The translations under genes and the position numbers were made by a program. A DNA stretch of 64,000 nt from an uncultured Clostridia bacterium (lineage in GTDB: Bacteria > Bacillota > Clostridia > Christensenellales > Borkfalkiaceae), in contig CAJFQM010000004.1 of the NCBI GenBank assembly GCA_904419075.1, positions 1-64,000 on the forward strand. Reading direction: 5' to 3'. The notes under the pieces were generated by a model that ran no database searches, had not been told where the DNA came from, and was given only the letters and a program-made list of their open reading frames with translations. Position 1 is the first letter of the stretch, and the number at the start of each line of letters is the position of its first letter. This document shows, one piece after another, positions 7,853 through 58,450 of this stretch.

Positions 7853-9193
7853 TTGCAGTACACTGAAATTTCTTCGCGGGGGCGGGATAACGCCCCCGTC
7901 AAGGAAATCCCTTATAAAAATTTGTGCGGAAAAATGCGCGCCGAAATTGCAGGCTATGCCGAGACTCTTTCCGACGCGAAAGTCCGCGAAATGTTTTTGA
8001 ATTGCTTCTTTTCCTCCTTGGATACGGCGGCAAAACGCCTGTCCGACGGCAGTACGTTCATGCTCACGGGGGATATTCCCGCCATGTGGCTGCGCGATTC
8101 TGCCGTACAGGTAATGGGGTATCTTCCCTACTGCAAGGAGGACGACGATGTTCGTGCGCTCATTACGGGACTTTTACGGCGTCAATTCTACTATATTGGT
8201 TTAGACCCGTACGCAAACGCCTTCAATGAGGAGCCGAACAATCGCGGACATAAGGACGACGTCACCGATTGGGACAGTCCTTGGGTTTGGGAGCGCAAGT
8301 TTGAAATAGATTCGCTTTGTTACCCCCTTTGGCTGTTGCAAAAGTATATCGATTTCACGGAGGATTATTCGGTCGCAGACGACGGATTCCGTTTTGCGCT
8401 GAGCCGAATTCTCGATACTTTTGAGACGGAGCAGTATCATGCGGAACGTTCGAGATACATCCACAGCCGCCCGAAGTATCCGGAATTTCCCACCCTTCAA
8501 AACGGCGGGAAAGGCACGCCCGTAGGCTATACGGGAATGGTTTGGAACGGTTATCGTCCCAGCGACGATGTCTGCGATTACGGCTATCTCGTTCCGGCAA
8601 ACATGTTTGCCGTAGTCGTACTCCGCTGGCTGGAATCGCACGCCGAACGCACGGGCATTCTTTCCGAAAAGGAACGGATCAGCGCGCTGCGCGGACAGAT
8701 CGAAGACGGTTTGCAGAAATTTGCCGTATACGATCATCCGGATTTCGGAAAAATTTACGCCTATGAGACGGACGGGCTCGGACATTTCAATATCATGGAC
8801 GATGCCAACGTTCCCAGCCTGCTCAGCCTGCCTTACCTCGGTTATTGCCCGAAGAACGACCCGATTTACCTCAATACCCGTCGATTTATTCTGAGCCGTG
8901 CAAATCCGTATTATTTCGACGGCAAAATCGCCCGCGGCGTGGGCAGTCCGCATACGCCGGATAAATATATCTGGCATATCGGAATCGTCATGCAGCTTTT
9001 GACTTCTGACGATAAAGCGGAGCGCGAGAAATGTTTCCGCACACTCCTGAATACGGATGCGGGGTGTAAAGTCATGCACGAAGGCTTCCACTGCGACGAC
9101 GCCTCGCATTACACGAGACCGTGGTTCTGTTGGGCGAATACGCTGTTTGCAATGGCGGTTACCGATATGAAAGAAAAAGGAGAATTGGAATGA
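7853..9193 (+). CDS. GH125 exo-alpha-1,6-mannosidase
   Basis: This 446-residue enzyme has no signal peptide, so it should act in the cytoplasm, releasing mannose from alpha-1,6-linked mannooligosaccharides after import. Family signatures are GDIPAMWLRDSAVQV (about 73-87), the acidic cluster KDDVTDWDSPWVWERK (about 134-149), FEIDSLCYPLW, and DDANVPSLLSLPYLG further on. The length is normal for GH125. I took a TTG start at 7853, three bases after the previous stop, because GAGGA lies 6 bases before it and the first ATG would cut off 27 residues. The end overlaps the next start by four bases (ATGA), so the two are translationally coupled. Confidence 0.9.
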   Translation: MQYTEISSRGRDNAPVKEIPYKNLCGKMRAEIAGYAETLSDAKVREMFLNCFFSSLDTAAKRLSDGSTFMLTGDIPAMWLRDSAVQVMGYLPYCKEDDDVRALITGLLRRQFYYIGLDPYANAFNEEPNNRGHKDDVTDWDSPWVWERKFEIDSLCYPLWLLQKYIDFTEDYSVADDGFRFALSRILDTFETEQYHAERSRYIHSRPKYPEFPTLQNGGKGTPVGYTGMVWNGYRPSDDVCDYGYLVPANMFAVVVLRWLESHAERTGILSEKERISALRGQIEDGLQKFAVYDHPDFGKIYAYETDGLGHFNIMDDANVPSLLSLPYLGYCPKNDPIYLNTRRFILSRANPYYFDGKIARGVGSPHTPDKYIWHIGIVMQLLTSDDKAEREKCFRTLLNTDAGCKVMHEGFHCDDASHYTRPWFCWANTLFAMAVTDMKEKGELE

Positions 9194-43710: not shown

Positions 43711-43739
43711 TTGACATAGAGACATTTTTATGTTAAAAT
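43711..43739 (+). promoter_or_regulatory. promoter of the ROK kinase gene
   Basis: TTGACA (43711-43716), 17-base spacer, TAAAAT (43734-43739). The -10 box overlaps an in-frame ATG at 43738, which therefore cannot be the start codon of this transcript. Confidence 0.7.
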
Positions 43740-43755
43740 GAAAAGGAGGACGGAG

Positions 43756-44616
43756 ATGAAAGCAATCGGGGCCGACATTGGCGGAACGACGATTAAAGGC
43801 GGACTGTTTGAATTCGGTATAGGTGCGGACACACCCCGACTGATTCGAGAAATCAATTTTCCCACGCATGGAAAAGAAGGTCGGGAAAAGATATTGGAAT
43901 CGTTATTCGGGGTAATTTCCGCATTAAAAGAAGAGGGAGTGGAAAAAATCGGGATTTCTTCTGCCGGAAATATCGATAACGAACGGGGAATTTGCGTGTA
44001 TGCGACGGATAATCTGCTCGGGTGGAGCGGTATAGATTTGAAGCGCATAGTGGAGGAGAAGTTCAGGATTCCATGCATGGCGGATAACGACGCCGTTTGT
44101 GCATTGAAGGGTGAACTGATGGCCTATCCGACCGTTTTAAATGCGACTATGCTCACTTTGGGCACGGGAGTGGGCGGTGCAAGTTTGGTAAACGGGAAAA
44201 TCGTGCGCGGTAAAAATTTCGACGCGGGGCGTTGGGGGCATGTTTGTCTCGTGAAAAACGGGCGGAAATGCAATTGCGGAAAACGCGGCTGTGCGGAAAC
44301 GTATCTCTCTGCTACCGCTTTATTAAAAGACGGGCGAAAAAAGATTAAAAATTTAACGGATACGAAAGCCCTTTTTCAGCTCGCTCGTTGCGGCGACGAA
44401 AGAGCGGAATCGGTATTGGCGACGTTCGGGGAAAATCTGAATTTGTTGCTCGACGATATTCGGACGGCGCTGGCTCCCGAACGGATTATTCTCGGCGGCG
44501 GCGTGGCACAGTCGGAAGCATTGATTTTGGATTTGATAAAACGCAAGGATGACGTCGCATTTGCTCGGCTCGGGAATCGTGCGGGGATGTTTGGTGCGAT
44601 TTCCGATATGAGATAA
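43756..44616 (+). CDS. ROK-family sugar kinase
   Basis: A 286-residue cytoplasmic kinase that phosphorylates a hexose or N-acetylhexosamine with ATP. The N-terminal phosphate loop is GADIGGTTIKGG (5-16), the catalytic Asp is 112 (NDAVCAL), and the zinc motif is His162 with Cys172, Cys174 and Cys179 (CNCGKRGC). Absence of a DNA-binding domain makes it a kinase, not a ROK repressor. The start is ATG 43756 behind AAGGAGGACGGAG; the ATG at 43738 lies in the promoter. With the GH20-type gene after it and NanE further right, an N-acetylglucosamine or N-acetylmannosamine kinase is plausible, but glucose cannot be excluded. Confidence 0.88.
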   Translation: MKAIGADIGGTTIKGGLFEFGIGADTPRLIREINFPTHGKEGREKILESLFGVISALKEEGVEKIGISSAGNIDNERGICVYATDNLLGWSGIDLKRIVEEKFRIPCMADNDAVCALKGELMAYPTVLNATMLTLGTGVGGASLVNGKIVRGKNFDAGRWGHVCLVKNGRKCNCGKRGCAETYLSATALLKDGRKKIKNLTDTKALFQLARCGDERAESVLATFGENLNLLLDDIRTALAPERIILGGGVAQSEALILDLIKRKDDVAFARLGNRAGMFGAISDMR

Positions 44617-44638
44617 TGTTTTTCAGGAGAACGGAATT

Positions 44639-46519
44639 ATGAATTTCAATGTAAAAACAGCGGACGGGCAATTAAAAAAGGCTTTGGAAGAGCTTTCGGA
44701 AAAGTTCGGATTTTCTATTTCCGAGAACGGCATAGAGGTTTTGGTCAAGGAAAGTCCCGACGAATTTTTTGTGGAAGAAAAAAACGGCGCGGCGGTTGTT
44801 TCGTTCTTTAAGCGTCAGCAGGTTTTTGTTGCGCTTAAACGTTTGTCGGATTTGTTTGATAAAAGCGGAAAAATCGAAAAGGGATATCGTTATGCTCCGG
44901 AGATAAATTTTGACGATCTTACTTATATGTTGGATTGTTCGAGAAACGCCGTTCCGAAAATCGATACGGTGGAAAAGCTCGTAAGACAGCTCGCCGTTTT
45001 GGGGTACGATAGTTTTATGTTATATACCGAAGATACTTTTGTGGTGAAAAACAGAGAGTATTTCGGCTATCTTCGCAATCCGTTCACGAAAGAGGATATT
45101 CGGCGGATTGACGAGTATTGTAGACTGTTCGGGATAGAACTGATTCCCTGTATTCAGACTTTGGCGCATTTCAATACTCTTACGAGACATTACGCCATGG
45201 ATTATTTATTCGACGTAAACGATATTTTAATGGTCGGGGAGGAATCGACCTATGAATTTATCGAGGATCTCATTTCTACTTGCGCCGATTATTTTTCATC
45301 CCGCCGCATCAATATCGGCATGGATGAAGCGTATATGTTGGGCAGGGGCAGGTATATGGATAAACATGGCGCTCGCCCCCGTTTTGACATTATGCTCGAA
45401 CATCTTAAACGGGTGAACGCAATTTGCGGAAAATACGGATTTCGTCCCATGATGTGGTCGGATATGTTTTTCTCTCTGGCTTTGAACGCACAATATACCG
45501 ATAAACTTCCCGAAGAAATCGTGGACAGAATTCCCGCCGATATCGATTTGATTTATTGGGATTATTGCAGCTCGTCGGTAAAGCATTACGACGAACTCAT
45601 CAAAAAACATCTTTGTTTCAAAAATAAAATTGCCTTTGCCGGAGCGGCCTGGAAATGGGCGGGCTATACCCCGGACAACCGTTATTCTTTTGCCTGTAAC
45701 GGTGCGGCGGGTAAGGCTTGCAAAATGAATTCCATTCGTCAATACATCGTGACCGGTTGGGGGGACAACGGGGCGGATTGCTCGGTGTTTGCTTCTCTGC
45801 CCGCGTTGTTATACTGTTCGCGTATTAAATTCGACGAATTTGAAGCAGATGAAGCGTATAAGACCGCTTTTTACAATTTTTCGGGAATGCCTTTCGAAGA
45901 ATACATGACGATCGATTTGGGAAATCGGCTTACGGATAATCCCGATCCCGAGGAACGCAATACGGCGAATAAATATCTTCTTTTCAACGACGTTCTTCTC
46001 GGAACGTTGGATACAATCACGGTGGACGGCGTGGGCGAAACGTATGCCGAGCATTCCAAAAAACTCGCCGCGGCAAAAAAGACGGCGGGGGAATGGGCAT
46101 ATCTTTTCGATACGCAGTATAAATTGTGCAGAACTTTATCCATCAAAGCGGATATCGGCATTAAGCTGCGCAAGGCTTACGCGGCCTCGGATAAAGAAGA
46201 ATTGAAAAAATTGCTCAAAAAATTAAGGACGATGTACAGATATATCGGGGATTTTTATAAAGCATTGAAAACGCAGTGGGATAAAGAAAATCGTCCTAAC
46301 GGTTTCGACGTGCAAGATATTCGTATCGGAGCATTAAAACAAAGAGTACTGGCTGCGATTGAAAAGACGGAAAAATATTTGAACGGCGAAGCGCCGTCCG
46401 TTCCCGAACTGGGAGAAAAATTGCTTTGTTTTATGGGACACGGCGAAGAGTTTGAAAAGGATTTCGATCAGTGCGAATATCGTTGGAGAAGAATGACTTC
46501 CGTAAATGTGAACGAATGA
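44639..46519 (+). CDS. GH20-type beta-N-acetylhexosaminidase
   Basis: A 626-residue cytoplasmic protein. The N-terminal alpha/beta domain (about 1-85) is followed by a TIM barrel whose catalytic pair is Asp229-Glu230 in RINIGMDEAYMLGRGRY, the GH20 Asp-Glu motif. Upstream barrel blocks (YMLDCSRNAVPKID, ELIPCIQTLAHF) fit this family. The C-terminal 200 residues are helical and charged. It should release beta-linked GlcNAc or GalNAc from imported oligosaccharides, feeding the ROK kinase gene 22 bases upstream. ATG 44639 follows CAGGAG. The sequence belongs to a divergent GH20 branch, so the exact specificity is uncertain. Confidence 0.8.
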   Translation: MNFNVKTADGQLKKALEELSEKFGFSISENGIEVLVKESPDEFFVEEKNGAAVVSFFKRQQVFVALKRLSDLFDKSGKIEKGYRYAPEINFDDLTYMLDCSRNAVPKIDTVEKLVRQLAVLGYDSFMLYTEDTFVVKNREYFGYLRNPFTKEDIRRIDEYCRLFGIELIPCIQTLAHFNTLTRHYAMDYLFDVNDILMVGEESTYEFIEDLISTCADYFSSRRINIGMDEAYMLGRGRYMDKHGARPRFDIMLEHLKRVNAICGKYGFRPMMWSDMFFSLALNAQYTDKLPEEIVDRIPADIDLIYWDYCSSSVKHYDELIKKHLCFKNKIAFAGAAWKWAGYTPDNRYSFACNGAAGKACKMNSIRQYIVTGWGDNGADCSVFASLPALLYCSRIKFDEFEADEAYKTAFYNFSGMPFEEYMTIDLGNRLTDNPDPEERNTANKYLLFNDVLLGTLDTITVDGVGETYAEHSKKLAAAKKTAGEWAYLFDTQYKLCRTLSIKADIGIKLRKAYAASDKEELKKLLKKLRTMYRYIGDFYKALKTQWDKENRPNGFDVQDIRIGALKQRVLAAIEKTEKYLNGEAPSVPELGEKLLCFMGHGEEFEKDFDQCEYRWRRMTSVNVNE

Positions 46520-47191
46520 TTCGGAAAAAAGTAAAACGTCGAAGAATATTTTGAAACGGATGCGGCGATAAAAAGAAGTGTATCATGCGAAGGTGTTAAA
46601 ATATTTTACCGCTTTGCGCGAACTCGGTGAGGATATTGCCGCTCGCCTTTCGGAAATGTTGCGGTTATAGTCCCGCCGTTTCCGAACCTCGCGGAACATC
46701 AGGGGAAGGTTTGTACGAAACGTATCGTTTTTTAACAATGACGGATCGGAAAGCGCACGTAATTTTGCGGGGTGATCTGACAAAATTATATATTCCGCCT
46801 CATCGGGTGTTCAAGGCGGCCGATTCCGAGCCATACCGTACGTTGAAAAACGATCTGCGGAGAAAAAATGCCGCTCGATATGATCTATAAGAATATAAAT
46901 AAGGGGAATTTTATATTGTTTTTCAAAATACAGACGAGGCTGGTTGCGGAAGCGTGACAGGTGGAGTGTCGCCTGACGTTTGGAACGAACGGATTTGTGT
47001 TTTTCTTGCGTGAAAATTGTGTTTTACCGTTTGCAAATCCTGCTTTGAATGCGAAAAAAATTGATCTCGGAGCTTTGCGATTTTTGCGGTTTCCCCGCGA
47101 AGCAAAGACAATATTCGGGCAGAAAATTGTGAAGGAAAGACAGGCGCTGCCTGCGGGATTAAAAATAAATCGAAAGAAAGAGGTGAAATTT
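46520..47191. other. 672-bp region with a gene remnant
   Basis: Apart from the remnant at 46578-46890, it holds about 300 bases before the RpiR gene with a long in-frame extension (from 46961) that lacks a ribosome site and looks non-coding. I saw no clear promoter or terminator. Confidence 0.5.
46578..46890 (+). pseudogene. frameshifted small gene of unknown function
   Basis: Two frames read like one broken protein of about 104 residues. From GTG 46578 the first gives HAKVLKYFTALRELGEDIAA and stops after SEMLRL. From about 46650 the second gives CGYSPAVSEPRGTSGEGLYE, then HVILRGDLTKLYIPPHRVF, ending at TAA 46890. The composition resembles real protein, and one frame change near 46650 would join them. 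I do not recognise the family. Chance reading frames remain possible. Confidence 0.35.
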
Positions 47192-48019
47192 ATGGAAACG
47201 ATTGAAGCAAGAATTAAACAATTGCAAAAAGGAAACGTAACAAAAGCTTATAAAAAGCTGATAAACTACCTGGAAGAAGTGGATTATCAGGATATCATTT
47301 ATTTATCGATTACGGAATTTGCCGAAAAAGTCGGCCTTGCCGAAGCGACGGTACTGCGGTTTTGCCGTGCATTGGGATTCAACGGGTATCATGAGTTTAA
47401 GATAAATCTTGCCCAGCACGATAAGAAAAACGATTTCGGAAAAGCGGACGGACTCGAATATATCTCCGACATTATGTTGGATTATCAGAATGCGATGCTG
47501 AATTGCAGAAAAAGTTTGTCCGTGGATTTGATTGACGCGGCTACGGATTTGATTTTTAACGCCCGGAACATCTGCTGCTTCGGCGCGGGAAATTCCTATA
47601 TCGTCGCGCTGGAACTGCATAACCGTTTGATGAAAATGGGGATTTATACCCAGTGCGAACGCGATTCCCATATGCAGAGTATCCTTTGTTCCACTTGCGG
47701 AGAAAAAGATTTGTTGATCGTATTCAGCGTTTCCGGTCAGACAAAAGATACTTTGGATGTCGTTTCTTTGGCGAAATACTGCGGAATGAAGGTGATAGCG
47801 GTCACGTGTCACGGCAAATCGCCCTTGACGCGATACGCCGATTTGGTGTTTTCGACGGGCTCCATGGAATCTCCCGCCGAACCCGGTTCTTTGACAAGCA
47901 GGATTATGCACCTTTTTATCGTAAACGTGCTGTGCGTCGCCATACGCCAAAAAGATCCCGAACGGTTTACACAGGCTCTTTCCACCACTACGTTCGCTAC
48001 GGCGTCTAAATTGCTTTGA
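47192..48019 (+). CDS. RpiR-family transcriptional regulator
   Basis: A 275-residue regulator with an N-terminal RpiR helix-turn-helix (about 15-75; SITEFAEKVGLAEATVLRFCRALGF) and a C-terminal SIS domain (about 115-250; CCFGAGNSYIVALELHNRL, FSVSGQTKDTLDVV) that binds a phosphosugar. The family often controls amino-sugar and sialic acid genes, which fits the ROK kinase and GH20 genes upstream and NanE downstream. ATG 47192 follows AAAGAGGTG. A strong terminator lies at 48066-48117. Confidence 0.88.
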   Translation: METIEARIKQLQKGNVTKAYKKLINYLEEVDYQDIIYLSITEFAEKVGLAEATVLRFCRALGFNGYHEFKINLAQHDKKNDFGKADGLEYISDIMLDYQNAMLNCRKSLSVDLIDAATDLIFNARNICCFGAGNSYIVALELHNRLMKMGIYTQCERDSHMQSILCSTCGEKDLLIVFSVSGQTKDTLDVVSLAKYCGMKVIAVTCHGKSPLTRYADLVFSTGSMESPAEPGSLTSRIMHLFIVNVLCVAIRQKDPERFTQALSTTTFATASKLL

Positions 48020-48065
48020 AGCTATTTGAAATCTCTCGGCCTTAAAAACGAGCAAGGCTCTTTAT

Positions 48066-48117
48066 AAAAAATGACGGACAAACAGTCATCGACTTGTCCG
48101 TCATTTTTTATTTTTTA
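48066..48117 (+). terminator. terminator of the RpiR gene
   Basis: A perfect 16-bp stem (AAAAAATGACGGACAA with its complement at 48094-48109) around 12 bases, followed by ATTTTTT. The A-run on the left would let it act in both directions. Confidence 0.85.
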
Positions 48118-48183
48118 GTGAAAAAATTTTTTATTTTAAGTCTTTTTGAGTGAGGAAAAGTAGAAAATAGATTCCAATAGCCT

Positions 48184-48241
48184 AAAAAAATAAAAATTTT
48201 TTTTATAAACTATTGACAAAGGATATAGGGTGTGATATAAT
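48184..48241 (+). promoter_or_regulatory. UP element and consensus promoter
   Basis: A7-T-A5-T8 (48184-48204), then TTGACA (48213-48218), 17-base spacer and perfect TATAAT (48236-48241). It drives the poly-G lipoprotein gene and possibly the importer operon after it. Confidence 0.8.
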
Positions 48242-48299
48242 ACAACCAACAGGAAGGAAATAACAGACGACTTTAAGTGGTCTGAAAGGAGTGTTTTAT

Positions 48300-50923
48300 A
48301 TGACAAGGAAACCTTTTGCATGTATGTTGGCAATGTTGTTTTGTGTAGCGACTGCTTCAGGTTTCGCCGCTTGCGGGAACCGAGGTGAAGATTCGTCAGG
48401 TTCCGGTTCGGCGAATAACTTTGAGGAAGGGGTTTACACGAATGCCGTTGAGGCGAAAACGGTGAAGCAAAATCCGGCGGACAGTCGGGAGGATGCGTAT
48501 GAGGCGTTTTCGACGGACGGTGAATCGCTGGGGACGTATAAGACGATTGCCGCCGCTATCAACGAAGCCGTTGCCAATGACGCCGCCGAGGAAAAATACG
48601 GCGGGTATGTTGAGAAACTCGGGGGGGGGGGCATAAACTTTTCACTAATAGAGAAGGATATGCCGAAGGAAACGACGATGTGTTCTGGTATTATGACGAG
48701 GGGACAAAACTTGCGGCGATGGATTGTTTCGATTCGACGGGGTCTATCTCCATGCTCCATAATTCGAATATGATAACGACAAACGTTACGGGTTATGGTT
48801 CCTATTCGACACAGAGCTGGAACGGATACAAAATGCTCGACGTTAACGGAGAGGAAGTAACGGGAAGAGTGGCGCAGACTTGGGAGTTGTCCTCGACGAT
48901 GGATTCGGCGGTAATGTATTTTACGGGGCGTTCTTCTTTCCCGGGAATCACTCGTCTTTCCTATACGATCGATATGTCCGAGGTTAAAATTGTACCGAAC
49001 TATGCGGGTACGGACGCCACATATGCGTTCATGGGCTTTTATGCATGGCAGGATTATTATGTTATCGCGATAGGCCTCGCTTGCGACGTTTCGACGGGGA
49101 ACTGGTATCTTTATGAAGGAACTTCCCGCGACGATTCTTTCTCCGACGTCGAATATAATTTGGGCGAATGCCTGATGACGTCCACTTGGAACGACGCGGA
49201 AGGCTGCTTTGAACCCGATCAGAATACGGTGACGCTTTCGATGGAAACGTTACAGCTGCAAGATCCCGACGATGCGGAATCGACCTATCAGGTGGATTGT
49301 TTGGATATTCAGTGCGGCGACACGGGATATAAGCGTTACATCACGGACGAATATATTTCTCAGCGTTTTGCGGGTGCGGCTCTTGCGTATAATAACGCAT
49401 ATGCGTTTACGGCGGGGCTGGATATCAAAAACGAAGTCGTGAAAGGTGTCAAGTCGGCTTCCGCGGATTACTTTAACGGCGCGAAGTTTGAAAACCTTAC
49501 GGTTACTTCCGCAACCGCGTATGTGCCCACGGAAGAGGAAATGTCCGATATTACTTACGGCTCCATAATCAATTCGGAATGGAGAGGAAAAGAACATAAC
49601 CTTGTCATGGCGAGCGGCGAACATACGGCCGAACTTTACGATTATACGATTTTGAATACTGCCGCGTTTGCGACGTATACGGCAAAGGACGGCAAAGATT
49701 GCTTCTCGTTCGATTATTCCAAAAGCGGGGTAAGCGATGAAGTTTTGTCGGGCGAAGCTAAGACGTATCAGGATGAAATCGACTCCTTAAAGGTAGTAAC
49801 ACCCGAAAACGCAGCGCAATATAAAGAAAAGATAAAGGAACTCAAAGCAAAATACAGTCCGGATAATGCAGAAATTCCTCAAAGATATTTTAACGTACTC
49901 GATCTTTCTCCCATTGAAGCCGCAAATGAAGCATTGATACAGTCCGCAACGAAGAGCGAAGGCGGAAAATTGGCGCTTCAAGTGAATGCGATGGGCAAGC
50001 TCCGGCTTTATAAATATAGCGGTTGGGAAACCGAAGAATCTTCGGAGGAATTGACGGGATATCTTTGGACGGATCTTCAAACCATGCAGAAGCTGTTGGC
50101 GCGTGCGGCCGAGCTTGAAACTACCGATAAGGAAGACTACGCGTCGGTGCTTGAACTGACGGATGCCGACATCGCTTATTGGACGGAAACCTACAATTTC
50201 GTGAAGGAGGCGTTGGCGGACGAAAGCCTTGCCCAAAAGATAACGGTCGTTTCCGAGGCTCCCGGCAAACACGGTACGGCTACGGCAAAAGAGGAAAAGA
50301 CCTATCTGCAACTCATTCAGGATATGTTCAAATATTCCTTTAAGATTGCGGCGGGCACGGAATGGGGGACGGAAAACGACGATCCCAACAGTGGGCACGT
50401 TACGCTTATGAACTTTGACAACAACGGATACCCGTCCTCTTATTTATGCACGATTGTGGATATGCTTAAAGCCCAGGGCGTTGAGATTCCCAAAGTTTTG
50501 ACGGACGAAGTGTTTAACGCGATAGCGTATGACGATTTCTATAACGGCGCTTACGCACCTATTTCGGGGATCGTGAAAATCGTCAATAAGATTTATGCAA
50601 GCGAGAACGGCACAAAACTTACGCTGAAAGATCTTACGGAAGAAGAGCTTGAATTCCTGAATACCGTTTGGACGGCGGATTATGAACTGAGCTCGCACAT
50701 CAGTTGGAACTGGGAAAGCGGAAATAAGTTTGAATCTTATTATATCGGCCGTATCGACAGAGTGATTGCCTATGCAGGAGGAACGTTGCCTCCCGCGGAA
50801 GAAGGCGATTATCACAAGTTTGCGCAATATGCCGATTATTTGAACGAATGGCTCGCCGCTCAGGGCTATGAGGCAAATACGAACGGTTGGGGCGTTAATG
50901 CGAATGAGATAGTTGCTGAATAA
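48300..50923 (+). CDS. large lipoprotein gene interrupted at an 11-G tract
   Basis: From ATG 48300 (AAAGGAG upstream) the frame encodes a lipoprotein signal (Cys25 in FAAC) and 106 sensible residues up to a run of 11 G at 48621-48631. There it leaves its natural frame and stops at 48773. The rest of the protein continues in another frame (HKLFTNREGYAEGNDDVFWY onward) to TAA at 50923. With 12 or 9 G the gene would be one frame of about 870 residues. The long second part (WELSSTMDSAVMYFTGR, LEFLNTVWTADYELSSHISW) matches no family I recognise. Explanations are phase variation by slippage, a sequencing error in the homopolymer, or a recent mutation. Later codons look unaffected by decay. It precedes the fourth importer operon. 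Confidence 0.75.
48621..48631 (+). repeat. poly-G tract of 11 bases
   Basis: Eleven G in a row within the coding region, just after the codons for VEKL. Its length decides whether the lipoprotein gene is in frame (9 or 12 G) or out of frame (10 or 11 G). Confidence 0.9.
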
Positions 50924-50937
50924 TTGCGGCGACGGGC

Positions 50938-50982
50938 GGCAGGTGGCAATTTTACAGCTATTGTCACCTGCCCGTATTTTAA
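50938..50982 (+). terminator. hairpin after the poly-G lipoprotein gene
   Basis: GGCAGGTGGCAAT (50938-50950) pairs with ATTGTCACCTGCC (50960-50972) with one G-T pair, then CGTATTTTAATAA. The T-run is short, so some read-through into the importer operon is likely; no separate promoter for that operon is obvious. Confidence 0.65.
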
Positions 50983-51015
50983 TAACCTGGATAAAAGTAA
51001 AAAAGGAGGAGTGAA

Positions 51016-52944
51016 ATGAATAAAAGGGTATGTTCTCTTTTTTCGGGAATTATTGCGGTAGCCTTGACGGCCGTGACAATTGCATCTTGCGGCGGCAAAA
51101 TGCCCGACGATACGTGGCAGGCGTCCAAAAACATCAATTGGGATGTCGATTTGACTAAACCTATTACAATAAACGGAATGTTTCCCGAAACGGGTATTTC
51201 GGGATTCGGAAACGATGATTCATCAAAGATTATTGAGGAAAAAACGGGTTATAAAACTGTTTATAAAGAACTTTCCGCTTCCAATGCCGACAACGACGTG
51301 GCAAATATCTTTTTGAATCAGGATAAATATCAATTCTTGAAATTGACGGAAGCGCAATATCATCCCAATGTGCGCGACGGACTTCTTCTCGATTTGACCG
51401 AATTGCTTCAAAAAAGTGAATCCGGACGGATTTTATATGCGTTGATCGATCTGATGCCCTACGGCTGGGATGCGGTGACTTATCAGAAGCCGGACGGTAC
51501 GGACGGTATATTTGCGATTCCCGATTTTGGTTATTGCATGATGGAGGATACCGCTTTCGTTTGGAATAAGGATCATTTGCAACAGGTCGGTATCACCAAG
51601 ATTCCCGAAACGATGACGGAATTCGATGTTGCTTTACATAAATTGCAGGATAAGTTCGGCTCTAACACGGAATATCATGCCCTCGGGATTGGCGGCAATA
51701 ACAACTCGAATATTTCGGCGATCATGTCTGCTTTCAATTGTCCGCTGGAATATTACGTGGACGAAGACGGAAAAATTCAGAAAGATATTTTCAGTGAGAC
51801 GATAGATAATTACGTTGAATATATGCATTCTCTTCGCGACGACGGAATTCTCGCGACGACCTGGCAGAATTCTTCGGCGGATGCGATTTGTCTGAATTTT
51901 GCGCAGGAAACGCATTCGGTCGTTTCCCTCTCTTACTGGTGGGTGGAATCGCTTGTCAAAACGATTGTCGCCAGCAACAAAATAGCGGCGAGCATGAACG
52001 TATCGAACGATTATCAGACTGTTCACGATGAATGCATAGGTTGGAATACCCGTTTGCGCATGGATGAGGAAATGGCCGCGGCATTAAACGCCAAAGATAA
52101 TTTCAAAAATGTAGAGGCGCAGGATAAGGCTCGCCTTCACGGCGGCGATGACGGCATTTCGTACTATACCGCGATTCCTTACTATATGGCGGGCGATGCA
52201 TTGTATACGATTGATTACCTTTCCAAAAAAATGCAGCATTTTGCCGATTTTTATGGCGGGGAAGAGGGTAAGCATTGGAATTTGACGGAAACGCCCGAGG
52301 GTGCCAAAGACTATTACGGCGTAGACGAAAACGGAAATCAGGATTACGGTTATCAGGAATTTGAAGATTACAGCAAAAAAATTATTTATCTCAGGCCTTA
52401 CGAATACACTTACAGCTATGAAATCGATCCGACTTTGGAACAGCCGTCCGGAACGACGACAGTGAATGCCGTGACGAAAACCTATACGCTGGAAGGAACT
52501 AAAATGACCGTAAACGTCAAGGGCGGCGGAATCTGGGTACAGCTTACCGACAGGTATATGGAACAGATCGTCGATAATTCTCAATATTGTAACGGTACGA
52601 ATCCCATTGAAGCGGATGTTTTGTTCCATCTGCGCGAAACGGGGTTTGATGCATGGCAGGTAACCGTTCCTCTCGACGATACGGTCATAACCAATCCCAT
52701 GACGATGAGTCCTCCGTTCTCTTCGTGGGCGCCCGTGTCCATCTTGTCGAGAACGGTGGCAAAAAGAGGAATTGCGACCGCGATAGACTCGAAAACGCCC
52801 ACGGCTTCTTTGGAACTTACGCGTGAGAGTCTCAAAACGTTGAACATCAAGGGGCAGGACGGTAAAAAATATTATTATTGGTCGGACGATATCGTAAATG
52901 AAATGACTAAGTGGTATACGGAAGTCAAGTTAAACAGAGATTGA
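51016..52944 (+). CDS. large ABC importer binding lipoprotein, Lpl type
   Basis: A 642-residue solute-binding lipoprotein (Cys25 in IASC), much longer than the other three in the window. Large binding proteins paired with LplB/LplC- or YteP/YtcP-type permeases are a known Bacillota group that imports bulky oligosaccharides such as uronic acid or mannan products. Visible blocks are YGWDAVTYQKPDGTDGIFAI and AFVWNKDHLQQVGI, followed by a long C-terminal lobe. ATG 51016 follows AAGGAGG. It is followed by its two permeases and by DUF4127, GH31, GDPD, GH26 and NanE genes. The ligand is unknown. Confidence 0.86.
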   Translation: MNKRVCSLFSGIIAVALTAVTIASCGGKMPDDTWQASKNINWDVDLTKPITINGMFPETGISGFGNDDSSKIIEEKTGYKTVYKELSASNADNDVANIFLNQDKYQFLKLTEAQYHPNVRDGLLLDLTELLQKSESGRILYALIDLMPYGWDAVTYQKPDGTDGIFAIPDFGYCMMEDTAFVWNKDHLQQVGITKIPETMTEFDVALHKLQDKFGSNTEYHALGIGGNNNSNISAIMSAFNCPLEYYVDEDGKIQKDIFSETIDNYVEYMHSLRDDGILATTWQNSSADAICLNFAQETHSVVSLSYWWVESLVKTIVASNKIAASMNVSNDYQTVHDECIGWNTRLRMDEEMAAALNAKDNFKNVEAQDKARLHGGDDGISYYTAIPYYMAGDALYTIDYLSKKMQHFADFYGGEEGKHWNLTETPEGAKDYYGVDENGNQDYGYQEFEDYSKKIIYLRPYEYTYSYEIDPTLEQPSGTTTVNAVTKTYTLEGTKMTVNVKGGGIWVQLTDRYMEQIVDNSQYCNGTNPIEADVLFHLRETGFDAWQVTVPLDDTVITNPMTMSPPFSSWAPVSILSRTVAKRGIATAIDSKTPTASLELTRESLKTLNIKGQDGKKYYYWSDDIVNEMTKWYTEVKLNRD

Positions 52945-52999
52945 TTCGTTTCATGTTCTCCCTCTGGTTGGACGGAGGGAGAATGTGAAGGGGGTGATT

Positions 53000-54046
53000 A
53001 TGGAAAATAGGAATATTGAAGAAAGACATACGGAAAACGACGGAAGACTCCTTTCCGCTCGCGTTGCGACAAAAGCGAGTGCGAATATGTACAGCCCTCC
53101 CGGTTTTTTCAAATTACAGATAAAGCGGTTGAAAAAACATCGCCTTATTCTTTGGTTTATTATTCCCGCCGCTCTGTTTACGCTTATTTTTTCGTATATA
53201 CCGATGATGGGTGTGCTGTTTGCCTTTAAAGATACGAAATTTGATTATGCGATGCGGGCGGGGGCGGATATTTTAGGCGCGTTGCAATATTCGGCGTGGA
53301 CGTTGGAAACGATAAAAGCGATTTTCAATTCAGACTTCCTTTCTGCGTTGTGGAATTCGGTGTTTATCAATTTGATTAAACTCGTTATTGTATTCCCGTT
53401 GTCCATTCTGATTGCCGTTCAGTTGTCCGAACTGAAAAATCAGACTTCGGCAAAACTCGTGCTGATCATAATATGTATTCCCAACTTTTTATCTTGGACG
53501 ACGGTAGTCGCGACGTGGAACGGCTTTTTAGACCCGAGCTTCGGATTTTTGGGAAAGATGTTGAAAGATTTGACAAAAGGTGAATCGTTGACTTATTACG
53601 AATGGTCGTTTAAGCCGCTGTTTGTATTCCTGAACGCGTGGAAGGGCGCGGGGTGGGGCTGTATCATGTATTATGCCGCCATTACCGCTATAGATAAAAC
53701 GTATTACGAATCGGCGACGATAGAAGGAGCCAATAAATTCCAAAAGACTCTTTATTTGACGATTCCTTCCATAGCTCCGACGATTGCGCTCATGCTTGTT
53801 ATGAATATAAGCGGATTTTTGGGCGTTGGTCTCGATCAAGTCAAACTTATGCTCGATAAAGCGTCGTATTACGACAGCCAGAAGACGTTGGATCTTTATA
53901 TTTATGAAATGTCGATAGGAAACGGCGCGGGGGTATCTTATGTGCAGGCTGCGGCGCTCGGTGTTTTCAACGGTTTGACCGGACTTATTCTGATGCTTGT
54001 GGGCAATAAGATTACTACCAAGACGCTGCATAAGAGTTTATGGTGA
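53000..54046 (+). CDS. ABC importer permease, LplB/YteP type
   Basis: A 348-residue permease with a hydrophilic N-terminus of about 50 residues, then six predicted helices (LILWFIIPAALFTLIFSYIP) and the EAA-type loop YESATIEGANKFQKTLYL near residue 240. ATG 53000 follows AAGGGGGTGATT; the GTG at 52985 lies before that site. It is distinct from the MalF-type permeases of the other three importers. Confidence 0.9.
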   Translation: MENRNIEERHTENDGRLLSARVATKASANMYSPPGFFKLQIKRLKKHRLILWFIIPAALFTLIFSYIPMMGVLFAFKDTKFDYAMRAGADILGALQYSAWTLETIKAIFNSDFLSALWNSVFINLIKLVIVFPLSILIAVQLSELKNQTSAKLVLIIICIPNFLSWTTVVATWNGFLDPSFGFLGKMLKDLTKGESLTYYEWSFKPLFVFLNAWKGAGWGCIMYYAAITAIDKTYYESATIEGANKFQKTLYLTIPSIAPTIALMLVMNISGFLGVGLDQVKLMLDKASYYDSQKTLDLYIYEMSIGNGAGVSYVQAAALGVFNGLTGLILMLVGNKITTKTLHKSLW

Positions 54047-54965: not shown

Positions 54966-56477
54966 ATGAGAAAAAAAATATTGTTATTGCCGTTGGACGA
55001 AAGACCGTGCAATTTCAAATTCCCTTTGTTGATGCCTTCGGCGGATATTCGGATAATCCGTCCGCCGAGGGAGTTGCTCGGGAATAAGAAACTCCCCGCG
55101 GATTGTAAAGAAATAGCGCGTTGGGTTATTGAAAATGTTCGGGACGTCTATGCCGTCGTTTTGTCTATGGATATGCTGATTTACGGCGGACTTGTCCCTT
55201 CAAGGCTTCATTTCGACGATGTTCGTACGCTGGACGAACGCGCGGAGATAGTCAGGGAAATCAAAAAAATAAATCCGGACGCAAAACTTTACGGATTTCA
55301 GACGATTATGCGGTGTCCGTTCTATTCTTTGAGCAATGAAGAACCGGATTATTACGCCGAGTACGGCGCGGAAATTCATCTTTACGGCAGATATGCGCAT
55401 AAGCAAAGTTTGGGACTTCTTGCGGAATCGGAGGAAAGGGATTTTGCAAGGATCAAAGCATTGTTGCCGGACGAAGTGCTGCGGGACTTTATCGAGCGGA
55501 GAAAGGCAAATCTGCATACGCTTTTGAATACGCTCCGAATGGTCGGGGAGGATTTGTTCGACGGGTTTATCGTTTCGCAGGACGACAGCGCTCCGTATGG
55601 TTTTACCGCCATGGATCAATCGGAAGTTCGCGAGTATATCAAACGGAACAAGTTGCAGTTAAAAGCGCCGATTTATCCTTCCGCCGATGAGGCAGAAATG
55701 ACTTTGCTTGCGAGGGCCGTAAACGAACTGAATCGGATTGTGCCCAAAATTTACGTCTATTATGCGTCTGCTTTCGGGGCCACGGTGACGCCGGCATTCG
55801 AAGACAGGACAATCGACGCAACGGTAAAATGTCAAATCCTTTCGGCGGGTTGTCAACGTGTATACGAACCGTCGGAGTGCGATATTTTTCTCGCGGTGAA
55901 TATAGGGGCGGAAATGCCTTATCGTCCGACGAAAGAACAGCTGTACAGACCTTATGACGTAGAACGTAGCCTGGCGGAGTTTGTCTCCATGATTAAATAT
56001 GAGTTGGGACGCGGAAAAATCGTTGCCGTTGCGGACGTGGCGTATCCTTCCAACGCGGATGAAGAACTGCTGCGGATTTTGCACGATGAGGATCTGCTTT
56101 TGAAGATTCACGCTTATGCGGGGTGGAACACGTCGAGCAACACGCTGGGTACGGTAATCTGCGAAGCGTGTCTGTATAATGTCGGAAGGGATAGACTCGG
56201 AAACGAACATTTTTTGATTCACAGATATTACGATGACGTCGGGTATGTAAATCATGCGCGTGCATGGACAGACGTTCATGCGGCATTGGCTAACGGTTAC
56301 AGTGAAGAATGTTTGGACGGCGAACGCGGAATGTGTACGGAGATGGCGAAAGGAGAATTGATGCGATATATGCGGGAGAATTATCCCCGCATTGCCGACC
56401 GCGTTGAGGATATAGAAGTAAGTTCGCCCTGGAATCGATCTTTTGAAATGGATTTTTCGATAAAATATAAGGATTGA
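54966..56477 (+). CDS. DUF4127 family protein
   Basis: A 503-residue cytoplasmic protein matching the pattern of the DUF4127 family: it starts ILLLPLDERPCNF, then has PPRELLGNKKLPAD, VVLSMDMLIYGGLVPSRL, and IVSQDDSAPYGF. The conserved Asp, Arg and Gly clusters suggest an enzyme, but I know of no established activity. It begins 4 bases after the permease gene and ends 2 bases before the GH31 start, so it is firmly part of the glycan operon. A role in processing the imported compound is the contextual inference. Confidence 0.75.
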   Translation: MRKKILLLPLDERPCNFKFPLLMPSADIRIIRPPRELLGNKKLPADCKEIARWVIENVRDVYAVVLSMDMLIYGGLVPSRLHFDDVRTLDERAEIVREIKKINPDAKLYGFQTIMRCPFYSLSNEEPDYYAEYGAEIHLYGRYAHKQSLGLLAESEERDFARIKALLPDEVLRDFIERRKANLHTLLNTLRMVGEDLFDGFIVSQDDSAPYGFTAMDQSEVREYIKRNKLQLKAPIYPSADEAEMTLLARAVNELNRIVPKIYVYYASAFGATVTPAFEDRTIDATVKCQILSAGCQRVYEPSECDIFLAVNIGAEMPYRPTKEQLYRPYDVERSLAEFVSMIKYELGRGKIVAVADVAYPSNADEELLRILHDEDLLLKIHAYAGWNTSSNTLGTVICEACLYNVGRDRLGNEHFLIHRYYDDVGYVNHARAWTDVHAALANGYSEECLDGERGMCTEMAKGELMRYMRENYPRIADRVEDIEVSSPWNRSFEMDFSIKYKD

Positions 56478-56479
56478 CT

Positions 56480-58450
56480 ATGAAATTGCTGAGTGAGAAG
56501 GAAATTTTGGAAAAGGACGGAAAATTCGTCTTTACATTGAAACGGAAATACAACGCGGCATTCGGTTTTGGCGAAAAGTTTGACAGCGTGAATCAGAAAG
56601 GCAAAGTCGTTCGTGCCTGCGTTAGAGAAAAATGTTTTTATCAGGGCGAGTATACTTATCTTTCGATGCCTTTTTTCGTTACGCCGAACGGGTTCGGGAT
56701 TTATGTGGAAACTTATGTGGAAACGGTGTTCGACTTAACCAAAGAGGATGAAATTGTTATTTCCTATGAAGCGGGCAGTAACGGAGAAAAAGCAAAAATT
56801 TGGCTGTTGGAAGGTTCGATGAAAGAAATAATCGGCGAATTCAGGAAATTAGCCGGTATGCCGAGAGTTTTTCCGAAGTGGGTTTTAGGTGCGTGGATGA
56901 GTTCCAATCGTTGGAGCAGTCGTTCGGACGTGGAAGAACAACTTGCAAAGATGAAGAAATATCAGTTCCCTCACAACGTACTGGTCATCGAAAGATGGAG
57001 CGATTTGACGACGCATTGTATCTGGAAAGACGTGCGGGCGACGAGTATACCCATGGAAGAACCGATAAAATATGACGAATTGGATTTTTCCTCGGCGAAG
57101 GACTGGGACGATCCCAAGGAGATGATCCGCGAAATACATGAAGACGGGTTAAAGGCGTTACTTTGGGTGGTCCCTGTATATGCGCAGGATTCTTCGCTCG
57201 AAACAGATTGCAATGTCGAACGCTGTTTGGCCGAAAACGAATATGTCAAAGAACATAAATATTGTGTGATGAACGCCGACGGAACGCCGTATGAAATTCC
57301 GCATACTTGGTGTGTCGGATGCATGGTTCCCGATTTTACGAATCCCGAGGCTTCGGAACATTGGTTTGATCGGTTCGAGCATTTGAAAGAGTGCGGAATA
57401 GACGGTTTCAAAACGGACGGCGGGGAATTCATTCATGACCATACGGTGAAGTTTTTTGACGGCACCACGGGAAAAGAGGGGCAAAATGCTTATTGCGAGC
57501 AATACAGTAAGGCCTTTGCCGAATATGTCGGAGGGGATTCGATTGTATTTTCCCGCGCCGGAGGGGTAAAGAGTCCGACGTTTTCGGTTATTTGGGCGGG
57601 GGATCAGGAATCTACTTGGTCGGAATTTGCTTCGGTATTGAAAGCGGGGCTTTCTGCGGGAATTTCCGGCGTGAACTGTTGGGGATACGATATTGCCGGA
57701 TTTTCCGGATATTTACCGACCGCAGAGCTGTATTTGCGTGCCGTTCAGGCAGCGACGTTCGTTCCCGTAATGCAATGGCACAGCGATCCCGTGACAAACA
57801 ATCGTTGTGATTTTACGGGCGCATGGCAGATTAACGATCGCAGCCCTTGGAATATCTCCGCGTATCATAAAGATCCCGAACTGTTATCGTTGCTCCGCGA
57901 TTCGTTCAGATTGCACTATAATCTCATTCCTTATCAATATAATTTGATGTTGGAATCGTCCCGAACGGGCGTATCTCCTCTGCGGCATTTAAGCGTAGAA
58001 TTTCCGGAAGATGAAAAAACCTATGACATTGACGACGAGTTTATGCTCGGAGAAGCGTTATTGATAGCTCCGGTTTTGCGGGATTACGTTTCTTCGAGGA
58101 AAGTATATCTCCCCGAATGCAAATGGTATGGTTTGTTTGACGGAAAAACTTATTCCGGCGGGGTTTGCGAAGTGGCGTTAAAGCGTGCATATTCCCCTGT
58201 GTTCATGAGAGAAAATACCTGCGTCGCTTTGAACCTCAAAAACGGGAAACTTTTCTCCGATGTCGGGAACAGGCTGGACGGGTATGAAGAATTGACGTTT
58301 TTGGTTTGCGGAAAGGGCCGATATGTTTTTGCTGACGATTTGAATAACGAGATAGAAATATCTTGGACGGAGCATTCTGAAAAAATTGAAAGGAATCATG
58401 CCGATATACGAATTAAAATTTTGCATATAGAAAATTCAAAAATCGTTTAG
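56480..58450 (+). CDS. GH31 alpha-glycosidase
   Basis: A 656-residue cytoplasmic GH31 enzyme. The N-terminal galactose-mutarotase-like sandwich (about 1-130; FGFGEKFDSVNQKG) precedes a TIM barrel with nucleophile Asp313 (GFKTDGGEF) and acid/base Asp376 (WAGDQESTWSEF). Beta-sheet domains follow (about 520-656). It hydrolyses an alpha-linked glucose, xylose, galactose or sulfoquinovose; the active-site text does not settle which. ATG 56480 lies just after AAGGATTGACT; an in-frame TTG at 56474 is less likely. Confidence 0.88.
   Translation: MKLLSEKEILEKDGKFVFTLKRKYNAAFGFGEKFDSVNQKGKVVRACVREKCFYQGEYTYLSMPFFVTPNGFGIYVETYVETVFDLTKEDEIVISYEAGSNGEKAKIWLLEGSMKEIIGEFRKLAGMPRVFPKWVLGAWMSSNRWSSRSDVEEQLAKMKKYQFPHNVLVIERWSDLTTHCIWKDVRATSIPMEEPIKYDELDFSSAKDWDDPKEMIREIHEDGLKALLWVVPVYAQDSSLETDCNVERCLAENEYVKEHKYCVMNADGTPYEIPHTWCVGCMVPDFTNPEASEHWFDRFEHLKECGIDGFKTDGGEFIHDHTVKFFDGTTGKEGQNAYCEQYSKAFAEYVGGDSIVFSRAGGVKSPTFSVIWAGDQESTWSEFASVLKAGLSAGISGVNCWGYDIAGFSGYLPTAELYLRAVQAATFVPVMQWHSDPVTNNRCDFTGAWQINDRSPWNISAYHKDPELLSLLRDSFRLHYNLIPYQYNLMLESSRTGVSPLRHLSVEFPEDEKTYDIDDEFMLGEALLIAPVLRDYVSSRKVYLPECKWYGLFDGKTYSGGVCEVALKRAYSPVFMRENTCVALNLKNGKLFSDVGNRLDGYEELTFLVCGKGRYVFADDLNNEIEISWTEHSEKIERNHADIRIKILHIENSKIV

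Follow-up and report, generated by a model that had tools for sequence, protein, structure and literature searches.

Phase variation by slippage on simple sequence repeats is known mostly from host-adapted pathogens, in which homopolymer tracts lie within reading frames or promoters of surface-related genes. Among the poly-G tracts of Campylobacter, lengths of 9 and 10 dominate, and homologues that lack a tract are normal (PMC6321876). The porA gene of Neisseria meningitidis shows how strongly one or two bases can matter, as surface expression is high at 11 G, falls about 2-fold at 10 G and is 13-fold lower at 9 G (PMC3639595). Bifidobacterium breve likewise has a G-tract in the gene that opens a pilus operon (PMC9187656). 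For Clostridia, the mechanism described is DNA inversion, and the accessible portion of a 2025 review mentions only inversion for phase variation in Clostridioides difficile (PMC11868660).

A poly-G tract inside a lipoprotein gene

The window considered here is a stretch of 64,000 nucleotides from an uncultured Clostridia bacterium, and it contains a glycan locus with a gene for a large lipoprotein. Only one G/C run in the window exceeds 6 nt, the length of the runner-up, and this is a run of eleven G. The decay of shorter runs predicts 0.003 G/C runs of 11 or more in 64 kb. The tract begins precisely at codon 108 of the lipoprotein gene, counted from the ATG at 48,300. The features of the gene and its surroundings are as follows.

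43,738–48,019, plus strand: ROK-family sugar kinase, GH20-type hexosaminidase and RpiR/SIS regulator, upstream of the lipoprotein gene (Pfam and NCBIfam)
48,213–48,241, plus strand: sigma-70-type promoter, TTGACA and TATAAT with a 17-nt spacer and TG before the −10 element (12 of 12 consensus matches)
48,300–48,620, plus strand: 5' part of the lipoprotein gene, with a signal peptide, the lipobox FAAC at residues 22–25 and 107 codons before the tract
48,621–48,631, plus strand: G11 tract, proposed to act as the switch; the two frames connect at 9 or 12 G and stay apart at 10 or 11 G
48,632–48,773, plus strand: off-frame tail followed at 11 G, with the stop at its end (from frame reading)
48,632–50,923, plus strand: intact 3' part of the lipoprotein gene, 763 open codons, 42% identity with a rumen homologue (L082)
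50,938–50,972, plus strand: stem-loop of 13 bp with a short U-rich stretch behind it, a possible partial terminator before the next gene (z −2.3)
51,016–52,944, plus strand: second lipoprotein, probably the solute-binding protein of an ABC transporter, inferred from its position and the similar gene order at L082
52,985–54,961, plus strand: two sugar-type ABC transporter permeases (BPD_transp_1; UgpA/MalG-like)
54,966–58,450, plus strand: DUF4127 protein and GH31 glycosidase, which also belong to the locus (domain matches)

With eleven G, the lipoprotein frame is broken and terminates at 48,773. From 48,632 to 50,923, one frame runs through 763 sense codons without interruption, whereas the two alternative frames contain 32 and 45 stops. 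Addition of one G (12 G) or removal of two (9 G) fuses the two parts into a single frame of 874 or 873 residues, respectively. A preliminary description of this DNA had reported eleven in-frame G near codon 108 with a stop at 48,773, a single frame of about 870 residues at 12 or 9 G, and an open remainder of 2.3 kb; the positions were recovered exactly, and the computed frames bear out the rest. Two of the marks of an ORF-type phase-variable gene are present, namely a homopolymer longer than chance would give within a reading frame and a change of one or two units that fuses 107 and 763 codons, both parts being conserved.

A ribosome-binding site, judged by eye, precedes the gene, and its own promoter has an ordinary spacer without a G-run. 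Searches of Pfam and NCBIfam assigned no family to this lipoprotein or to the second one, an AlphaFold model computed from a two-sequence alignment reached a mean pLDDT of only 36, and an Rfam scan of positions 46,000–54,000 found nothing. The hairpin behind the gene was not flagged by a terminator scan.

Relatives of the lipoprotein

No close relatives of the window lipoprotein were found in the genome collections searched, which yielded only two homologues. The first (L082), from a yak-rumen MAG labelled Bacilli, is intact, with 863 residues and 40–42% identity; it likewise precedes a lipoprotein and then a permease, and the N-terminal portion of the window protein resembles it by eye. It aligns to the window gene without gaps if the tract is taken as 9 G, encoding three glycines. 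The second (L081), from the same genus as the window, is 32% identical and carries an in-frame internal TGA in the region 1,938–2,050. Neither has a G-run, and both keep the frame across the tract site, reading KLGSTFKMFVN in L082 and TKGTADDVKLFIN in L081. Relatives that keep the frame without a G-run had been named beforehand as an outcome that would refute switching. This outcome is literally met by L082 and L081; switching is nevertheless not judged refuted, given that known phasomes normally include homologues without a tract (PMC6321876) and that neither relative is close.

Poly-G tracts throughout the genome

The genome, 2.33 Mb in 38 contigs, contains 19 runs of at least nine G, compared with about 2.6 expected by extrapolation from short-run counts. 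Four of them are 9 long, eleven are 10, two are 11, and one each is 12 and 13; runs of exactly 8 occur only twice. Within 342 kb around the tracts, the counts fall from 5171 at length 3 through 1176, 290 and 35 to a single run of length 7, and then reach 11 at length 10. These run-length statistics combine the 342 kb with genome-wide pattern counts, and since the 342 kb were selected around tracts, only the shape of the distribution is meaningful. The genes and promoters in which tracts lie include the following.

Out of frame (OFF) in the assembly: window lipoprotein, G11; secreted protein (L036), G10
Out of frame in the assembly: AraC regulator (L037), C10, divided into cupin and HTH parts
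Out of frame in the assembly: giant BspA-LRR surface protein (L033), G8, among the two runs of exactly 8
Open: GH3 enzyme (L039); AraC regulator (L046); TM2 protein (L032)
Open: Asp/Glu racemase (L048), adjoining capsule-type genes
Open: hexapeptide acyltransferase (L049), adjoining a flippase-like gene
L034 (on contig 3), positions 7,978–7,986 and 8,066–8,078 of L034, minus strand: promoter tracts before an LPG-synthase-like gene, behind which lies a phosphatidylserine decarboxylase gene

The tandem G9/G13 tracts on contig 3 lie exactly between TTGACA and TATAAT, with spacers of 17 and 22. Three further tracts lie at the very C-terminal end of proteins involved in signalling, namely a PocR-AraC regulator, a BY-kinase-like protein and a GHKL histidine kinase, where they perhaps switch the protein tail or couple it to the next gene. 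The other tracts of the genome are intergenic or have no assigned gene. A surplus of long G tracts with enrichment in surface and regulatory genes, which is what defines a phasome, is thus seen in the ratio of 19 to 2.6, in the gene functions and in the association of poly-G promoters with lipoproteins described below.

Several related observations were made along the way. C-terminal poly-G/C runs were recorded at L045 (8,022), L160 (1,979), L040 (7,958) and L041 (7,994), a set comprising two likely histidine kinases that precede response regulators, the PocR-AraC regulator and the BY-kinase-like protein. Runs directly before start codons occur at L038 (8,036), L109 (1,502) and L148 (2,012), where they may serve as the Shine-Dalgarno sequence or set its spacing. 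G-runs also stand at contig ends in congener MAGs (G008:C19:1-17, G017:C45:13-27 and similar), which reflects either assembly breaks at tracts or poly-G sequencing artefacts.

The genome-wide set bears directly on the alternative that survives best, an assembly or sequencing error that conceals a true length of 9 or 12 G and a gene that is permanently ON. Homopolymers are error-prone in assemblies, published and database G-tract lengths can be wrong (PMC9187656), and the gap-free alignment of L082 at 9 G would suit a fixed in-frame length. However, an error of one base leaves unexplained why a run of at least nine G exists here at all and why nineteen of them occur in promoters and surface genes, and the secreted protein, the AraC regulator L037 and the BspA-LRR protein are out of frame at their tracts as well. 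An error alone is regarded as unlikely.

Poly-G between the −35 and −10 elements

The arrangement found on contig 3 was sought elsewhere with the pattern TTGACA-N(2-14)-G8-N(0-4)-TATAAT, the same pattern read backwards serving as control. Among 398 genomes of the family, 111 contained it, and none matched the control. In an even sample of the order, four families carried it in 14 of 34, 14 of 33, 13 of 32 and 8 of 32 genomes (49 of 131), compared with 2 of 265 others, and a sample of the class showed it outside the order in four genomes only. The preliminary description had called slippage at such a tract unusual for a Clostridia glycan locus; the phase variation itself is supported, but the locus is no isolated oddity, the trait being shared by several related families.

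In most poly-G promoters, the start codon follows 30–110 nt past the −10 element. Of 56 distinct cases, 37 have a lipoprotein as the product of the next gene, compared with 26 of 224 ORFs in the background (odds ratio 15, P = 8e-16); that background was taken from the window's own genome only, and paralogues were counted individually. Arrays of lipoprotein paralogues occur in which each copy has a separate poly-G spacer promoter (L128–L136 in genome G250 and L137–L143 in G247, with 18 and 8 counted sites preceding lipoprotein paralogues, respectively). In seven congeners, additional tracts follow TTGAC with a TATAAT-like sequence behind, and other congener tracts lie in a lipoprotein signal peptide (L111), in an out-of-frame acyltransferase (L145) and at the end of a likely kinase (L160). 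The porA-type arrangement, a homopolymer between −35 and −10 with a variable spacer, is accordingly realized by related loci and not by the window gene. A phage origin of these promoters was considered and rejected, as merely 4 matches were found in IMG/VR viral contigs.

Tract length and spacer length

Spacers of poly-G promoters span 11 to 24 nt across genomes. Perfect promoters of the ordinary kind from the same loci cluster tightly at a spacer of 17 (22 of 36), whereas the poly-G spacers are scattered, with a variance of 5.2 against 0.57 (Levene P = 6e-9). No overall compensation between G-run length and the remaining spacer was detected across genomes. Over 187 distinct promoter sites, spacers of 16, 17 and 18 nt occurred 43, 14 and 40 times, so that 17 is avoided (P = 2e-5), and this held both within the family (24, 11 and 27) and outside it (19, 3 and 13). 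Promoter tracts have 9 G most often, ahead of 8 and 10, and at this length most sites stand one or two slips off the 17-nt optimum. This may mean that most populations are OFF or low and poised to switch, although the avoidance of 17 nt itself is left unexplained.

Differences of a single G were observed between near-identical loci. In L162 and L163, from different species, 1525 bp align at 98.1% identity and the sole indel is one G of the tract (G8/G9). L052 and L060, again from different species, differ as G9/G10 with a single additional 3-nt indel over 1.83 kb, and the tandem paralogues at L166 have tracts of G10 and G9. The two between-species pairs were selected for differing tract length; they show where indels fall, not how frequently. 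L164/L165, a candidate third pair between species, was discarded as too diverged to inform at 68% identity. Paralogous promoters within G250 and within G247 are uniform in length, all nine that were read in G250 being G8 and the G247 group G9, each with 15-nt spacers, which argues against fast drift.

Three further alternatives were weighed. Homopolymers can slip under RNA polymerase and the ribosome, and as the frame and promoter are intact, one allele might yield a fixed full-length fraction without any switching of the DNA; this would leave the promoter-spacer tracts and the one-G differences in DNA unexplained, and it is considered very unlikely. The uniform G8 and G9 promoters with 15-nt spacers would fit a G-run that is a fixed motif, such as a structural or regulator-binding promoter element, with changes in length only incidental, yet this is hardly tenable, given uncompensated spacers of 11 to 24 nt across genomes and runs of the same kind within coding sequence, to which a promoter motif is irrelevant. 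That the gene is a decaying pseudogene with the frameshift as its first lesion, as the out-of-frame allele might suggest, is scarcely credible beside 763 stop-free codons, 42% identity, a perfect promoter and a lesion that falls exactly on the poly-G.

Proposed switch

The G11 tract is held, with good confidence, to be a slipped-strand phase-variation switch in a large surface lipoprotein gene and a member of a phasome of about 19 tracts. Phase variation had been proposed from the window alone, and the proposal now has the support of some nineteen tracts and of one-G differences at near-identical loci of related species. The tract, its frames, the surplus in the genome, the placement in genes and promoters, and the one-G differences at promoter loci of related species are demonstrated. 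That G11 itself changes length in a living population is inferred, without reads and with its true length here uncertain.

Replication slippage on the poly-G would alter the tract length. At 11 or 10 G, translation is predicted to leave the frame at codons 108–112 and stop, so the assembled allele would be OFF, and a tract one G longer or two G shorter would restore the lipoprotein. By inference, the OFF state would remove the surface lipoprotein and perhaps lower expression of the downstream transporter genes, from which the hairpin at 50,938–50,972 may partially separate the lipoprotein gene.

Loss of mismatch repair is excluded as a cause, as MutS and MutL are intact in this genome, and the long tracts themselves must therefore provide the instability. 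A match to the MutS N-terminal domain was also noted in a separate 368-residue frame (G000:C9:4876-5142), apart from the intact mutS. Several points speak against switching: intact mismatch repair would slow slippage, the two homologues lack a G-run, and the promoter paralogues in G250 and G247 are uniform in length. Moreover, the evidence on length differences between loci concerns promoters rather than the window gene and comes from pairs picked for differing.

A broader reading, considered likely, is that of a lineage-wide phasome in several families of uncultured Clostridia. Promoter switches, whose commonest length is usually 1–2 bases off the 17-nt spacer, would control arrays of surface lipoproteins, while additional surface proteins and AraC regulators would be subject to frame switches, so that these gut commensals would vary their surfaces combinatorially; the effects on expression are inferred.

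Comparison with known systems

If this is true, random surface diversification occurs across many uncultured species and has been hidden by consensus assemblies, in which phase-variable genes appear broken or silent. The phasome also names candidate phage receptors and immune targets. A search of the open-access literature on phase variation, poly-G, Clostridia, gut Firmicutes and metagenomes found no poly-G phasome in Clostridia, which does not prove its absence. What appears to be new is the lineage, together with the scale and the architecture of the promoters; the type of mechanism is already known.

Clostridioides difficile shares with the present lineage a clostridial phase variation that includes surface and signalling genes, but according to the accessible part of the source it relies on site-specific DNA inversion (invertible promoters) and not on repeat slippage (PMC11868660). 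Bifidobacterium breve is likewise a Gram-positive gut commensal with G-tracts; it belongs to the Actinobacteria, its tracts concern pilus clusters only, and a promoter class is not described in the portion of the report available (PMC9187656). Campylobacter jejuni and its relatives are similar in having tens of poly-G tracts per genome, located in surface-related ORFs and most commonly 9 or 10 long (PMC6321876, PMC4965091). They represent another phylum, however, and their tracts are mostly in ORFs, whereas the present set includes a large class in promoter spacers and has lipoproteins as targets, and, in contrast to Campylobacter, MutS and MutL are present. The vlp genes of Mycoplasma hyorhinis resemble the lipoprotein arrays in that each gene of a surface-lipoprotein family has a promoter homopolymer that slips between ON and OFF (PMC10502178), although the homopolymer is poly-A there and poly-G here, and the proteins are unrelated. 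Neisserial porA has its poly-G in the same place, between −35 and −10 (PMC3639595), but it is a single gene, whereas the Clostridia lineages carry many such sites each, with spacers that avoid 17 nt.
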